NCBI GenBank assembly: GCA_028278405.1
Contig: JANQEK010000029.1
Location: 43,482 to 107,481 of the forward strand
Direction: 5' to 3'
Length of the DNA stretch: 64,000 bases
From: Nitrospinaceae bacterium
GTDB taxonomy: Bacteria > Nitrospinota > Nitrospinia > Nitrospinales > Nitrospinaceae
Shown here: positions 867-9,482 of the stretch, one piece after another
How positions within the stretch are numbered: the stretch's first letter is position 1
Layout of the letters: each line of letters begins with the position of its first letter
Translations under genes and position numbers: made by a program
Notes under the pieces: model-generated
Seen by the model: the letters and a program-made list of their open reading frames with translations, nothing else
Database searches by the model: none
What the model was told of the DNA's origin: nothing

Positions 867-1268
867 CTCAAACTCTTCCGATTAAAGATTCATGAAGCAA
901 TCATCAATACCTTTACTGTTATAGTAACAAGCAAGATAGATGCCAACAATACCCAAAAACTACCCCTTTCAGTTAGCCCTAAGTATTCAATATATTAGAA
1001 AAATATGAGATTTTTACGGTCTGTTCACGAGGGCCGGATTTTGACACTTCCCGTCGCTCCTCAAGGCCCATTTTTGTCTCTTACCCCTCATGCCGGGGAA
1101 AACCCCCTGAATTTTTTGAGGCTTATCAAGAGCCTCTCAATCGGTTAAACTAGACCCCCCAGCGCTGGGCAAGCCCCGGAGCAGATTTTGTTTATCCTTT
1201 CACCCCTGGCTTCAGCGAAAAACACATGTTTAAAGTTACCAGCGGAGGTACTCCGCAAAGGACTGTTC

Positions 1269-2669
1269 ATGACTGAAGAAGTACGCGTCCGGTTCGCGCC
1301 CAGCCCCACCGGTTTCCTGCATATCGGCGGGGTGCGCACCGCCCTCTTCAACTGGCTGTTCGCGCGCCACCACAAAGGCAAATTCATTCTGAGAATCGAG
1401 GACACCGACCGCGAACGCTCGACTGAGAACTCGATTCAGGAAATCATCGAATCAATGCAATGGCTGGGGCTCGATTGGGACGAGGGACCCTTCCGCCAGA
1501 TGGAACGGCAAGACCTCTACAAGGAAAAGGTCGATCAACTGCTGAGGGAAGGGAAGGCATACCGCTGTTACTGTTCTCCGGAGGATCTGGAGCGCCGCCG
1601 CAAACTGGCGATGGACCAGGGCGCCAAGCCGAAATACGACGGCACCTGCCGCGGCCGCAAGGACCAGCCGAATGAGCCGCACGTCGTGCGCTTCCTGTGC
1701 CCGCAAACGGGCAACGTCGTCGTCAAAGACCTCCTGCGCGGCAACGTGGAGTTCGACGTGGCGGAACTCGACGACTTCATCATCCTGCGCACCGACGGCA
1801 CGCCGACCTATAACTTCGTCGTGGTGGTGGACGACGCCGATATGCGCATCACCCACGTTATCCGGGGCGATGATCATCTGTCCAATACCCCCCGGCAGGC
1901 GCTGATGTACGACGCTCTCAATTTCCCGCGGCCGCAGTTCGCGCACATCAGCATGATCCTCGGCGCCGACAAATCACGCCTATCGAAACGCCACGGCGCG
2001 ACGGCCACCCTCGCCTACCGCGATATGGGCTACCTGCCCAATGCGCTGATCAATTACCTAGCACGCCTCGGCTGGTCCCACGGCGACCAGGAATTGTTCA
2101 CACAGCAGGAAATGATCGAACACTTTTCACTGGAGCATGTGACGATTTCCGCTGCGGTGTTCAATCCTGAAAAACTGTTATGGGTCAACGAGCAGTGGAT
2201 TCAGAAGTCCACGCCGGAGGAACTGGTCGAACCCTTTGAAGCAGCTCTCATTAAAGAAGGCATTCTGAACGAGGGTCACGGCAAAACGCAAGACGACCTC
2301 ATGAAAGTCATCCCCGCCCTCCAACCACGCGCCAAAACGCTGATTGAAATGGCCCACGGCGCTGAGTTTTACCTAAAGGATGAAGTGGTATTTGACGAGA
2401 AAGCGAAAGCCAAGTTTTTAACACCGGAAGTGAAGCCTTTGTTTGAGAAACTGGTGGCGGGGTTGGAGGGAATGGAGGAGCCGTTGGACCACGACGCTGT
2501 CGAAGCCCTGTTCAAACAGACCGTCAAAGAAGCCGGACTCAAACTCGGCAAACTCGCCCAGCCCGTCCGTGTCGCCCTCACCGGCAAAACTGCCTCCCCT
2601 GGAATTTATGATGTGGTGCTCCTGCTGGGGAAAGAGAGAACCATTGAGCGGTTAAAGAACGCCTTATAG
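1269..2669 (+). CDS. gltX: Glutamate--tRNA ligase (GluRS)
   Basis: MTEEVRVRFAPSPTGFLHIGGVRTALFNWLFARH...RIEDTDRERS...DKSRLSKRHGA: class I aaRS HIGH/KMSKS-type motifs; start set at 1269 inside the listed ORF. Confidence 0.95.
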   Translation: MTEEVRVRFAPSPTGFLHIGGVRTALFNWLFARHHKGKFILRIEDTDRERSTENSIQEIIESMQWLGLDWDEGPFRQMERQDLYKEKVDQLLREGKAYRCYCSPEDLERRRKLAMDQGAKPKYDGTCRGRKDQPNEPHVVRFLCPQTGNVVVKDLLRGNVEFDVAELDDFIILRTDGTPTYNFVVVVDDADMRITHVIRGDDHLSNTPRQALMYDALNFPRPQFAHISMILGADKSRLSKRHGATATLAYRDMGYLPNALINYLARLGWSHGDQELFTQQEMIEHFSLEHVTISAAVFNPEKLLWVNEQWIQKSTPEELVEPFEAALIKEGILNEGHGKTQDDLMKVIPALQPRAKTLIEMAHGAEFYLKDEVVFDEKAKAKFLTPEVKPLFEKLVAGLEGMEEPLDHDAVEALFKQTVKEAGLKLGKLAQPVRVALTGKTASPGIYDVVLLLGKERTIERLKNAL

Positions 2670-2694
2670 CGTCAGGATAAGGATCAAAATTAGA

Positions 2695-3135
2695 ATGGCT
2701 GATAATTTAACACCGGAAAAACGAAGCAAGATAATGTCTAGCATTAAGGGAAAAAATACCAAACCAGAGTTGGTAGTGAGGTCTATTGCTCACCGTATGG
2801 GATTCCGGTTTCGTCTCCATCGAAAAGATTTACCCGGAAAGCCTGATTTAGTTTTCAAGCGATTCAAAAAGGTAATTTTTGTTCATGGTTGTTTTTGGCA
2901 CCAACACAGAAAATGCCCAATATCGCATTTACCCACAACAAATACTAAGTTCTGGGAAGAAAAATTCAAACAAAATCATTTCAGGGACGAAAAAAACAAA
3001 AGGGAACTAAAAAGGTTGGGGTGGGGAGTTTTAACAATTTGGGAGTGTGAAACCAAAAAGCCCGGGAAGATAATAAAAAAACTTGAAAAATCCCTAAATT
3101 CACATTTACCAAAGCATCTTCATAAAGAGCATTGA
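2695..3135 (+). CDS. vsr: Very short patch repair (Vsr) type endonuclease
   Basis: RSKIMSSIKGKNTKPELVVR...LPGKPDLVFKRFKKVIFVHGCFWHQHRKC is the Vsr fold and active-site signature. Confidence 0.9.
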   Translation: MADNLTPEKRSKIMSSIKGKNTKPELVVRSIAHRMGFRFRLHRKDLPGKPDLVFKRFKKVIFVHGCFWHQHRKCPISHLPTTNTKFWEEKFKQNHFRDEKNKRELKRLGWGVLTIWECETKKPGKIIKKLEKSLNSHLPKHLHKEH

Positions 3136-3195
3136 TTAACTTTTAATATTGAATACTGTGCGAGGAATAAAAAAATATTTCCAGACGATATAACC

Positions 3196-4149
3196 TCATG
3201 GCTTCTGACTAAGGTTCTCAAGAAACTTATTAACCATTGAATCTTGCTCGACCAAATCTTTCCTAATGTCTTTTGCAGTAGTCTCATCAAACTTGAAATT
3301 TTTTACTTTAATCACCATTTTCCCATCTTCATCACTCGTTAATTCTTCCTCTTCATGCGCTAGCAGGTTCCGTTTTTTGCTCGTTTCCCTATATTGCTCT
3401 ATTACTTGATAAAATTTATTATGATCACTCTTGGAATTCTTTGCATCGAAATATTGCTCAAGAATTTCTTTACTTAGCGTTGCGATTCTCAGATCGGACC
3501 AGAAATTAATTGTTGACCCCAAGTATTCCCATGGATCATCATAATTAACTTTTCCAAAATTTCTCAAACGTTCCTCTAGCTTCTTTTTTATTCTTTTTAA
3601 AATTTTTTCGCGAAAAGTATTTTTCTCTTTACCGTCATCGAGAGTTTCATTATAAAAAGTCTTAATAATTTGGAAAATCTTTTTATCAATCCCCGATGTA
3701 GACGCCATTACTATTCCGCGCAAAGAATTCAGATCTAAAACTTTTCGAACAGTGGTCTCAATTACTTTGAAAACCTTGTCGTAAAATGGTTCGCCAGCAC
3801 GTTGGGCTACATAAACACCCTCTAGCTTATGATCCGAAATCACTCGGTGCAAATCCTCGCTACTTACCCCAGAATAGAATACTACCTCAGCGTAAATATT
3901 GTGATCTCTGATTTTTTTGATAAACTCTCCGCCTACAGTTTTGTCATTAAACCTATAATCAACAAGTATTAAATCATAGTTGCTTGAATTATTTAACTCC
4001 GCTTCCAGCTCCTCTATGTTTTCAGACCGAACCGCGCTGATTTGAGCAACAAACCCCAAGTCTTTTAAATGATCCTTAACACCTTCTTCAGTTTCTTCCA
4101 ACCATTCGGCATCATCTTCACACCATAGTATGTTATAGCTCAATCTCAT
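3196..4149 (-). CDS. Receiver-domain protein with C-terminal HEPN-like helical domain
   Basis: NILWCEDD...YDLILVDYRF receiver-like acidic pocket and phosphoacceptor Asp; C-terminal KKRNLLAHEEE matches the HEPN Rx4H motif; ATGA overlap with upstream gene. Confidence 0.7.
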   Translation of the reverse strand: MRLSYNILWCEDDAEWLEETEEGVKDHLKDLGFVAQISAVRSENIEELEAELNNSSNYDLILVDYRFNDKTVGGEFIKKIRDHNIYAEVVFYSGVSSEDLHRVISDHKLEGVYVAQRAGEPFYDKVFKVIETTVRKVLDLNSLRGIVMASTSGIDKKIFQIIKTFYNETLDDGKEKNTFREKILKRIKKKLEERLRNFGKVNYDDPWEYLGSTINFWSDLRIATLSKEILEQYFDAKNSKSDHNKFYQVIEQYRETSKKRNLLAHEEEELTSDEDGKMVIKVKNFKFDETTAKDIRKDLVEQDSMVNKFLENLSQKP

Positions 4150-6488
4150 TTTATTTTAATTCCTATGGCAAAATTCCCTTTTTTACTATTTTCTACAAAT
4201 ACATCGCCCCCAAAATCCTCTGAAACTACTTTTTTTAAATGAAATAATCCCAAACCAGATCCAGAAGTTGTCGTGACTCCCTTTTCAAAAATGCTATCTA
4301 AGTTATCAATATTTTTACTCAAGCCATCCCCATCATTAGACACAATAATTAAATAATTACGACCCTTCTTTGACGCTGAAAATTTGATTTTCCTTGCATT
4401 GGCTTTTTTTGCATTGTTGAGCAGGTTATCAATAACCATAGTTAGCTCCAATGGCCTAAATTTCTTTGCTAGCTGAAGAGACTCAGGGATATTATCTACC
4501 ACGCAAAGATCGCTATATATTTTGAACTCGTCTAAGGTTGATAAATACTTTTTGATAAAAGTGAAAATATCTGCATTTGCCTTTGCTGAAGATATTCTAA
4601 AATTGGCATGAGTTGCAAATCGAGATATTTTTAAGATCTTATTATTTTGCATTTCTATCTTGTCTATGAAATCTTTTGCTTTTTTGGGATCAAAACCTTT
4701 TTCTATTTTTCTCCTGAAATTTATAATCGCTTTTGCGATTGTATCAGCATATAAAATAGTTTGATGATGAAGGTTTATGATGGCATCTAAATCTTCATTG
4801 GCCTGCGCTCGCAAAAAAAGATTTTCACTCGTAAGCTGCTCTGTTGTTTTCCTTATCCTTTCCGCATCCTCCCTTAACTTTTTTGCTTTTTCTTGAAGCT
4901 GAAGGTTTGTTTTCCGCTTTGAAGCGAGCTCTTTTGCCTGACGCTCAATAAATTTAGAAAGGTCTCTTTTATCTACTGGCTCAAGCTGGCTAATTGACAG
5001 CCCAGAAAATCTAGCTTTAATATCGCGAACCAAAATCTCATATGAAGAAATTTCTTTTAGAGCTAAATTTTTAATATAATCCTCATTAAAAATGATATTG
5101 GTAATATTCTCCTTGTCACTTCTTATATAAATAATAGAAGCTAAGGACTCCAAAATAGATTTATCTCTGTCAGCATATTCTATATCGCCTTCTTCTATGT
5201 TAAAGTCATCATCATTTTGGACCTCTCTATTTATTCTGTCCCAATCCAATCCTTCAACCACAAACATCTCCAATTTTCTAAATAAGTTTTGGATATATCC
5301 ATACAACTTGCCATCATTTAGTGAAGAATTTACTTTTTGCTGATTTGAGGTGAGCTCAAGATAAGCTTCGTTATGGACCAATCCTTCCCGGCTAGAGATG
5401 GCAGAAAAGATATCGTCTTTATCAGTTATTTCAACACGGCCAAAAATTTCCCTAGTTCCAAGATACCTACTGTGTCCTTGTTGTTTTCTTCTATCAATAG
5501 CTAACCAATCATTTGTTGGCTCACCATACGGGATTACTCTAAATCCATTTAAGAAAAGAAACACTGAACCAAAATCTACAAGACTATAACCCGTTTCCCT
5601 TTTGAAGAAGGATTTGGCAGGTTGATTCAGGTAGTACAAGGATACGCTAATAGACTTTAAATGCAGATATGGATTTTTTTCGATAAGGGTAAAAATATCA
5701 TGGGCATCATGGCGTAACGTTGTTTTTATTTCTTTTCCTTTTTCATCAATTTCGGAATGTATAGAAGTTGTCCTAAAATCGAGCTTGTCAAAAATCTTAT
5801 TTTCGACTTTTCCATTAACCTGTTTGATTTTTGGAAAATCTGAAGAATGCAAATAAACAGCGAATTTATGATTCGGATCAATTACAAATCGCTCAAGCTC
5901 CCTCCTTAACTTTTTTAACTTTTCACTTCCCCATGAACTACGCAATTCATTAATTACAAGAACAGTTCCTGATTTAAATACTCCCAATCCGGTCTTACTT
6001 TTAAATTCGCGATTGGTAATAATATTAGGAGTCGAATATATATCGCTAACCTTCTTTGTTCTTTCATCAATCTCGTATGCTGTCCAATCAATTGGAAGGT
6101 GAATGATTTCGCCCGAGTTTGCTTTAGTGTATAAATCAAGCTTCTTTCCTAGACGATCACATGAAAACCTACCAATACCTTTACTGCCCGCAAAGGGAAG
6201 CCCCTTCATATTTATTCCGTGTTTTTTGTCCGAATAAGCGATGTTTAGCCATTTGAACTTTATATCGTCGAGAGACATTCCTTGCCCAGCATCTTGAATA
6301 ATAAGTTTAGAGGAGGGGTTAATTTGTATCGCATCGCTAAAATTTATTTTTACATTTTTTGAGCCTGCATCTTTGGAGTTTTTTATAAGTTCAATAATAG
6401 CAACATTGTCGTTATTAATAAGGCCACGCCCCACAATATCCTTTATTCGGGCATGTGCGGCAAAGCTAACTTTTTTTAACTTTTTCAT
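4146..6488 (-). CDS. Double GHKL ATPase: MORC/Hsp90-like N-terminal ATPase plus histidine-kinase-like C-terminal HATPase
   Basis: N-term IIELIKNSKDAGSKNV...IIQDAGQGMS...GSKGIGRFSCDRLG; C-term IDNLLNNAKKANA...VSNDGDGL...FEKGVTTTSGSGLGLF; coiled coil between. Confidence 0.8.
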   Translation of the reverse strand: MKKLKKVSFAAHARIKDIVGRGLINNDNVAIIELIKNSKDAGSKNVKINFSDAIQINPSSKLIIQDAGQGMSLDDIKFKWLNIAYSDKKHGINMKGLPFAGSKGIGRFSCDRLGKKLDLYTKANSGEIIHLPIDWTAYEIDERTKKVSDIYSTPNIITNREFKSKTGLGVFKSGTVLVINELRSSWGSEKLKKLRRELERFVIDPNHKFAVYLHSSDFPKIKQVNGKVENKIFDKLDFRTTSIHSEIDEKGKEIKTTLRHDAHDIFTLIEKNPYLHLKSISVSLYYLNQPAKSFFKRETGYSLVDFGSVFLFLNGFRVIPYGEPTNDWLAIDRRKQQGHSRYLGTREIFGRVEITDKDDIFSAISSREGLVHNEAYLELTSNQQKVNSSLNDGKLYGYIQNLFRKLEMFVVEGLDWDRINREVQNDDDFNIEEGDIEYADRDKSILESLASIIYIRSDKENITNIIFNEDYIKNLALKEISSYEILVRDIKARFSGLSISQLEPVDKRDLSKFIERQAKELASKRKTNLQLQEKAKKLREDAERIRKTTEQLTSENLFLRAQANEDLDAIINLHHQTILYADTIAKAIINFRRKIEKGFDPKKAKDFIDKIEMQNNKILKISRFATHANFRISSAKANADIFTFIKKYLSTLDEFKIYSDLCVVDNIPESLQLAKKFRPLELTMVIDNLLNNAKKANARKIKFSASKKGRNYLIIVSNDGDGLSKNIDNLDSIFEKGVTTTSGSGLGLFHLKKVVSEDFGGDVFVENSKKGNFAIGIKIK

Positions 6489-7720
6489 CTGGGAAGTAAT
6501 TTTTTAATTGTCAAACCAATAGCCTCTGCCATCAAAGGGGGAACGGCATTGCCGACTTGAGTGTAACGGGGGCATTCCTTTTTTCGCATATTGCCGCCTG
6601 TTGTATACTTGCCTTGGAAAGAGAACCAATCTGGAAAGGATTGTAGCCTGGCGTTTTCCCTTACAGTTAAAATCCGTGGTTCCTTATAGTGCAGGGTGTC
6701 ATCAGGCAATGTGGTAACCGTTGCGGCTAGTTTTTTAGGGTGCAAAGGTGTGAAGGAATGCTTCTTCATATTAAGTTGTTTGCGGTGTTCTTTTGATACG
6801 GATATACCTTTAGGGCACACCTTAAGGACTGTTTTAAATTTTTCCAGAGTTGTCGGCTTATGATTTGGCAACCGAATACTGTTCGGGATGTATCCTGAAG
6901 GGACTCCTTTTCTCATTAGTTTTTGGTAAGGGCTAAGTTCTTCAGGTTGTTCGTATTTTATTTCCCTAAAACCTTTCCCATCTAATGAACCAATAAGATC
7001 TTTCCCACCCACTTCCAAATCCCCAATTGCTTCTAATACAGTTGTGCTATGGCCATTGAGTCTCTTTTTTTTCCTGAAATCCGGAATAAGTGAATCCATG
7101 AACTCAAAGGGATCATTTATGAACTTTCCAATGTCCTTCCTAACGGCTAACATGATGAACCTTGAACGTGGTTGGGGTACCCCGAACTTTGATGCTTCTA
7201 TCATGCTTGGATAAACATGGTACCCACCCCATTTTAAATTTTCCAACCGCTTTTTGACCTTAAGGGAATAAGGTTTTTTCCCATTTTTAAAAGCCGTTTG
7301 GAATCCTTTCACATTTTCTAATAATAAAAACCGTGGCCTGATTAAATCGACTACCTTTATATACTCTGACGTAAGCCTATTCCTATGGTCCCTTGGGTTG
7401 CGGAGCCCAATGTATGAAAAACCTTGGCAAGGGGGCCCCCCGGCAATGAGGTCAATCTTACCCCTTAGTTTTCTTATTTTTTGGGTGTGCTTGCTCAAGA
7501 TTTGTTGGATCGACATGGGTTCACATGGCAACCAATCAGGCCAATCAAATTTATACTTAGAATTTTTCTTACAGAAGTTGTGTGACAGGGTTTGGAAGGC
7601 ATCGGGGGATTTTTCAACAGCGAAAACACCTTTCCAACCTGCCTGCATCAACCCAAGTGAAAGTCCACCGCACCCTGCAAACAGATCAATGAATGTATGA
7701 TTTCGCATCATATTAGGCAA
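6485..7720 (-). CDS. dcm: DNA (cytosine-5-)-methyltransferase
   Basis: FIDLFAGCGGLSLG, GGPPCQGFS, LLENVKGF, QPRSRFIMLAVR, RENARLQSFPD, QVGNAVPPLMAEAIG motifs. Confidence 0.95.
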   Translation of the reverse strand: MPNMMRNHTFIDLFAGCGGLSLGLMQAGWKGVFAVEKSPDAFQTLSHNFCKKNSKYKFDWPDWLPCEPMSIQQILSKHTQKIRKLRGKIDLIAGGPPCQGFSYIGLRNPRDHRNRLTSEYIKVVDLIRPRFLLLENVKGFQTAFKNGKKPYSLKVKKRLENLKWGGYHVYPSMIEASKFGVPQPRSRFIMLAVRKDIGKFINDPFEFMDSLIPDFRKKKRLNGHSTTVLEAIGDLEVGGKDLIGSLDGKGFREIKYEQPEELSPYQKLMRKGVPSGYIPNSIRLPNHKPTTLEKFKTVLKVCPKGISVSKEHRKQLNMKKHSFTPLHPKKLAATVTTLPDDTLHYKEPRILTVRENARLQSFPDWFSFQGKYTTGGNMRKKECPRYTQVGNAVPPLMAEAIGLTIKKLLPR

Positions 7721-7805
7721 ATATTACGACAAATCTTAGGAAAAGCAATAAAATCGAACACAGAGAATTATCTCATATTTTCCAGTAGGTTATAAGGGGA
7801 AGCCA

Positions 7806-9482
<1,677 letters not shown>

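Follow-up and report, generated by a model that had tools for sequence, protein, structure and literature searches.

A candidate phosphorelay-gated HEPN ribonuclease linked to a DNA methylase and a MORC-type ATPase in an AT-rich island of a Nitrospinaceae bacterium

Detocs is a defensive two-component system, in which a histidine kinase and a receiver-effector protein serve phage defence and not transcription. It combines a TPR-type sensor kinase with DtcB/DtcC receivers and is not known to include either a DNA methylase or a MORC-type ATPase; as effector it has a PNP-type nucleotidase and not a HEPN domain. A combination of a DNA (cytosine-5) methyltransferase (C5-methylase), a HATPase_c_3/kinase protein, a receiver and the repair endonuclease Vsr was published in 2021 from 628 strains, and a signalling role controlling restriction-modification (R-M) was proposed for its HEF_HK (PF19191)/Response_reg_2 (PF19192) pair (Bellieny-Rabelo et al., PMC8011034). 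ParaMORC ATPases are known in the context of C5-methylases and Vsr (Iyer et al. 2008, PMC2292703), and in the anti-phage nuclease VcSduA/Shedu a paraMORC-type GHKL domain is essential for phage defence (PMC12137116). HEPN ribonucleases of the RiboL-PSP, MAE_28990, Apea and DUF4145 families occur in defence and R-M islands, and a paraMORC-HEPN (Ymh) fusion has been noted (Anantharaman et al. 2013, PMC3710099). Here we describe an AT-rich island in a 64,000-nucleotide stretch of Nitrospinaceae bacterium DNA (assembly GCA_028278405.1, contig JANQEK010000029.1, positions 43,482 to 107,481, forward strand), referred to as the window and numbered from its first letter. The island carries vsr on the plus strand and a minus-strand operon that encodes, in this order, a dcm-type C5-methylase, a protein that joins a paraMORC-like GHKL ATPase with a soluble histidine kinase, and a receiver protein with a predicted HEPN domain.

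We tentatively interpret this cassette, with slightly less than even confidence, as a member of a modular class of immune systems, in which a methylase and a MORC-type ATPase would read self and non-self on DNA and a His-Asp phosphorelay would fire interchangeable effectors; the window would hold the HEPN form, a phosphorylation-gated ribonuclease. The broader proposition, that the cassette is an R-M-like immune (or addiction) system with a phosphorelay in place of the restriction enzyme, appears to us evenly balanced on the sequence evidence.

The receiver-HEPN protein (317 aa) is encoded by the last gene of the operon (3196..4149, minus strand, as are all operon coordinates below), and its architecture is shared by the 26 aligned proteins, which comprise the window protein and 25 relatives. 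Its AlphaFold2 model (mean predicted local distance difference test score, pLDDT, 82.7) shows a receiver fold and, after it, an all-helical domain. The match to Response_reg is weak (0.0014), and a Foldseek search with the full-length model returned receiver domains only, with a target template modelling score (TM-score) up to 0.79. The phospho-accepting aspartate D64 (3958..3960) is invariant in the 26 aligned proteins, and it alone is invariant in a set of 12 diverse receivers that covers all clades. D12 and D64 are invariant in alignment A3; the beta-5 Lys appears to be replaced by Arg (R117).

Residues 118–317 (3196..3798) make up the predicted HEPN domain, with an all-helical model of mean pLDDT 86.1 and a profile match to HEPN_RiboL-PSP. 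The sequence RNLLAH at residues 260–265 (3355..3372) corresponds to the HEPN catalytic motif RNxxxH named in the original prediction, and R260, N261 and H265 are invariant in the 26 aligned proteins; the motif conforms to the published HEPN pattern of Rx4-6H with a polar residue after the Arg (PMC3710099). Different relatives of the receiver protein matched six HEPN-superfamily Pfam families, all with weak E-values (RiboL-PSP 2e-4, MAE_28990 0.0047, Apea 0.0084, Swt1 0.09, DUF4145 3.6e-4, HepT-like 0.003). A profile-profile comparison (hhalign) of the C-terminal domain with the RiboL-PSP HEPN alignment scored 31.4 (P = 2.7e-4), compared with at most 12.9 in 13 controls, and set RNxxAH on RNxxAH; 40 shuffles that retained the motif block scored at most 27.6, all below the observed value. 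The original prediction had called this protein HEPN-like, and the invariant motif and the family matches strengthen that guess: the C-terminal domain is probably a HEPN domain, with predicted ribonuclease activity. The phospho-Asp and RNxxxH are retained jointly in 26 of 26 proteins and the phospho-accepting histidine of the kinase in 22, which indicates that receiver and RNase motif have been kept together and argues for a phosphorylation-gated ribonuclease.

The kinase protein (780 aa; 4146..6488) matches both HATPase_c_3 and HATPase_c, and its ATP-binding and H-box columns are conserved in alignments of 9 diverse homologues and of 22 proteins, the latter comprising the window kinase and 21 relatives. 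Its N-terminal MORC/MutL-type GHKL ATPase domain (residues 28–150; 6039..6407; PF13589, HATPase_c_3, 2.5e-20) contains E33, N37, D66, G68 and KGIGR, all invariant among the 9 homologues, and this part of the protein also gives weak matches to HgiDII/BbrUII and MutL models. Next, in the position that an S5 domain has in paraMORC ATPases (PMC2292703), comes a middle region with the conserved sequence YGEPxNDW; then follow a coiled stretch, the H-box and the C-terminal HATPase_c kinase catalytic domain (residues 680–772; 4173..4451; PF02518, 4.1e-15), in which the N-box N688/N692, F734 and the G2 box GSGLGL are kept. The predicted phospho-accepting histidine H575 (LHHQT; 4764..4766) is invariant in both alignments, and the residue after it is Gln or His, never Glu or Asp, in all 22 aligned kinases. 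The protein had been described as a double GHKL ATPase; two GHKL domains are indeed present, but they are not equivalent, and the "dual ATPase" is a MORC-type sensor ATPase fused to a histidine kinase. The term phosphorelay is therefore literal for the C-terminal half of the protein and not for its N-terminal ATPase half.

The methylase gene (411 aa; 6485..7720; PF00145, 6.1e-58; TIGR00675 above cut-off) opens the operon and encodes intact motifs I, IV, VI, VIII and X (DLFAG, PPCQ, ENV, QPRSR and GNAV). As the original prediction stated, the three genes are joined by 4-bp ATGA overlaps, between the methylase stop and kinase start at 6485-6488 and between the kinase stop and receiver start at 4146-4149, which indicate translational coupling; roughly one in two of the related loci has the same kinase/receiver overlap (−3 spacing). 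A C5-methylase adjoins the kinase-receiver pair in every related locus (n = 26; loci are given L numbers) except L051, whose contig stops at the receiver gene. It is placed either as methylase, kinase, receiver or beside the pair on the opposite strand. The first of these orders occurs with a receiver-HEPN gene in L132, the locus with the closest kinase, and is followed by vsr in the distant locus L008. As the unit is conserved in other genomes, the objection that the four genes never co-occur elsewhere fails. Vsr is a different matter. The window gene (146 aa; 2695..3135, plus strand, convergent with the operon; PF03852, 2.7e-30; TIGR00632 above cut-off) encodes intact GKPD and HGCFWH motifs, yet Vsr is present in only 5 of 27 receiver-HEPN loci (the window and four others), and we reject the earlier view of it as a core part of the system in favour of an accessory one.

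In a tree of 105 kinases the relay is the constant element and the effector the variable one. The window kinase groups with that of L132 (support 98) inside a clade of 24 loci, all of which have the fused HEPN domain except L025; L026 is counted with them since its receiver protein carries RNALMH. In 19 loci, from clades whose short receivers lack a fused effector, the receiver gene is followed by a stand-alone HNH gene. In four loci that lie within or close to the HEPN clade, a short receiver is directly followed by a gene for 201–226 aa with an HG...SC caspase/CHAT-like pattern and no Pfam match (L025 9238-9903, L010 7785-8465, L082 8906-9559 and L034 8664-9269), possibly a third effector type. 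The receiver thus stays as the constant relay, with an effector that varies by clade: a fused HEPN domain, a separate HNH protein, a separate caspase/CHAT-like protein, or other, long receivers. The kinase phylogeny shows that the output module is exchanged from clade to clade, a pattern shared with other modular immune systems. In L014, L008, L174 and L175, which belong to other clades, the longer receivers terminate in a domain with a conserved CD motif (TPSCDIVN, TPPCDFSN, QQRCDSVR and SAACDLVP).

The following sequence of events can be envisaged. The C5-methylase, whose intact motifs indicate that it is able to do so, would mark host DNA. The MORC-type GHKL half of the kinase protein would clamp DNA and respond to unmethylated, invading or damaged molecules. 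The cytoplasmic kinase would then autophosphorylate H575 and pass the phosphate to receiver D64, and phosphorylation would activate the fused HEPN domain, leading to cleavage of cellular or phage RNA. The expected outcome is growth arrest or abortive infection. Vsr would be an optional companion that repairs deaminated 5-methylcytosine.

Several observations weigh against this scenario. The hhalign score falls to 16.0 when the motif block is masked, so that much of the signal comes from the motif block, and no HEPN Pfam model matched the window receiver protein itself. Structure prediction, while yielding the receiver fold and the all-helical domain, gave no significant Foldseek match for the latter (best E 0.23), and the C-terminal profile matched none of the sequences of solved structures. 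In the kinase, the G1 box (4326-4343, about residues 716–721) reads SNDGDG; its Asn corresponds to an Asp in the 21 aligned relatives. The Asn may be a sign that the kinase half is decaying or binds nucleotide differently, and this copy may be weakened; the same substitution together with the Gln after the phospho-accepting histidine suggests that the kinase step in the window may be weak or changed. Finally, the notion that the sensor reads methylation is derived purely from gene context.

The island itself is 5.0 kb long and lies between convergent open reading frames (ORFs) of gltX (1188-2669, plus strand) and glnS (7806-9482, minus strand), as originally described. Its GC content is 0.367 (2695-7720), compared with a mean of 0.493 (standard deviation 0.018, minimum 0.429) in other 5-kb stretches of the window. 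In agreement with the original prediction, the ORFs and a domain search revealed no restriction endonuclease between gltX and glnS. Five other genomes of the family have the two genes as convergent neighbours, 0.5–1.6 kb apart, without the island genes; searches of 60 relatives for the GHKL protein and of the phylum's 76 other genomes for the receiver protein found neither. The island is a horizontally acquired insertion. The 25 further loci with an aligned receiver-helical protein, and L026 of the same clade, come from IMG/VR contigs and two bacterial phyla. Genome scans found receiver-HEPN proteins in 2 of 399 genomes drawn from the phylum of G077 and in 8 of 396 drawn from the phylum of G079, and the distribution is patchy, with horizontal acquisition. 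Searches by tblastn against plasmids and phages gave no match for the window receiver protein or for those of its relatives, and a DNA search of one relative in E. coli genomes also gave none. PADLOC returned weak, inconsistent matches for relatives of the receiver protein and nothing relevant for the window kinase or receiver protein.

Among the alternatives, the one that survives best is still unlikely: the cassette could be an addiction module, triggered by lost methylation of the host DNA and not by the arrival of a phage, with the methylase as antitoxin and the kinase-receiver-HEPN pair as toxin, so that cells losing the cassette are killed or arrested. The methylase is inseparable from the kinase-receiver pair, the effector is predicted to be toxic, and cassettes are found on mobile or provirus-like contigs, with a distant relative on Campylobacter plasmids, all of which favours this explanation; defence and addiction are, however, compatible in R-M-like systems. 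We consider it improbable that the pair is instead a regulatory two-component system that responds to the state of DNA or nucleotides by regulating expression of the methylase or of genes nearby, its helical domain binding RNA or protein without cutting. Such a role would resemble that proposed for the related HEF_HK/Response_reg_2 pair (PMC8011034), and inactive HEPN domains can occur, but the receiver protein has no DNA-binding output domain, the invariance of R, N and H points to catalysis, and in related clades the fused domain gives way to a separate gene, HNH or caspase-like. The least probable is an unusual type II restriction system, with the GHKL protein, alone or with the receiver protein, cutting DNA like the HgiDII/BbrUII enzymes and the receiver regulating it: residues 20–215 of the kinase protein score 62.7 bits against the BbrUII/HgiDII model, a C5-methylase and Vsr typically accompany R-M systems and two relatives have an extra HNH_2 gene, but the match is far under the cut-off of 550 bits and covers the ATPase part only, the rest of the protein consists of the conserved middle region, H-box and kinase domain with no nuclease motif found, and the HNH gene is absent from most receiver-HEPN cassettes, and we rejected an HgiDII-type enzyme as the principal interpretation.

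We thus return to immunity through a phosphorelay-gated HEPN effector as the preferred interpretation. If correct, it would bring together three usually separate subjects, namely methylation as a self-mark on DNA, two-component phosphorelays and the MORC-type ATPases, which are related to gene-silencing proteins of eukaryotes, and would add an RNA-cutting effector to them.

The neighbourhoods of the related loci offer further detail. The 67 genes flanking receiver-HEPN cassettes include no recurrent classical restriction enzyme, just HNH_2 (two genes, following the receiver gene in L126 and L128) and one GmrSD. In four loci a HAD_PNKP 3′-phosphatase gene (PF25109) lies directly after the receiver-HEPN gene (L016 9410-9850, L019 9380-9832, L100 7976-8419 and L123 7338-7778); this stand-alone PNKP-type phosphatase, of an RNA end-healing enzyme type, might repair RNA ends or serve as a brake. 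Forty records of Campylobacter plasmids match the kinase as a distant relative, and L014, a Campylobacter jejuni conjugative plasmid, carries a kinase-receiver-methylase cassette at 4995-9460. In L027 (5992-9975) the kinase gene is broken by an opposite-strand ORF of 494 aa (7102-8586), perhaps an insertion element. A PAPS-reductase/DndC-like ORF, recognized by eye, adjoins a related kinase-receiver pair in L005 (6758-7864), an arrangement that suggests a link of such pairs to phosphorothioate marks on DNA in addition to methylation. L012, a plasmid of the halophilic archaeon Halomicrobium, has the kinase-receiver pair with an N6-methylase gene nearby.

How does the locus compare with the systems already described? 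A type II R-M system would be expected to include a cognate restriction endonuclease, and the island has none. With HEF_HK/Response_reg_2 it shares a soluble HATPase_c_3 + DHp + HATPase_c kinase, a neighbouring receiver, a C5-methylase and often Vsr nearby. Nevertheless, PF19191 is unmatched by the window kinase at E up to 1 and by 10 relatives at 0.01, and PF19192 is unmatched by the window receiver protein at E up to 1, with 2 of 13 relatives matching at 1e-4 or weaker. In HEF_HK the core histidine is followed by Glu or Asp, in contrast to the H-Q or H-H of the window family. We rejected membership in HEF_HK/Response_reg_2 on these three failures. Kinases are about 780 aa in the window family and about 1000 aa in HEF_HK, and receiver proteins about 310 aa with HEPN compared with about 550–600 aa without HEPN in Response_reg_2. 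The window family forms a supported clade of the kinase tree apart from these systems; the seven systems of the published PF19192 type group in a clade by themselves (support 99); their kinases are about 1000 aa long, and their receiver proteins, where complete, measure about 540–590 aa and share no common terminal RNxxxH.

The N-terminal GHKL ATPase, with its conserved motifs and R-M neighbourhood, resembles those of paraMORC proteins and VcSduA; in VcSduA the ATPase is joined to a nuclease, whereas in the window it is joined to a histidine kinase and the effector resides on another protein. Known HEPN ribonucleases share RNxxxH, the all-helical domain and the R-M context with the window receiver protein, but in the latter HEPN is fused to a receiver, and the sole mention of a receiver in PMC3710099 concerns another fusion. 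A figure legend of DefensePredictor (PMC13092281) names a HATPase/REC system predicted there; the text does not tell whether it is the system of the window. No description of a receiver-HEPN protein was found in the literature searched, which covered part of the field. Because the profile tests failed, the histidine is followed by no acidic residue, the effector is a different and interpretable one and the literature searched describes no such fusion, we regard the HEPN-fused form, with its shorter receiver and H-Q, as apparently new within a general gene arrangement that is already known, and it would provide a concrete candidate output, a HEPN RNase, for a relative of the widespread, functionally silent gene pair of 2021.

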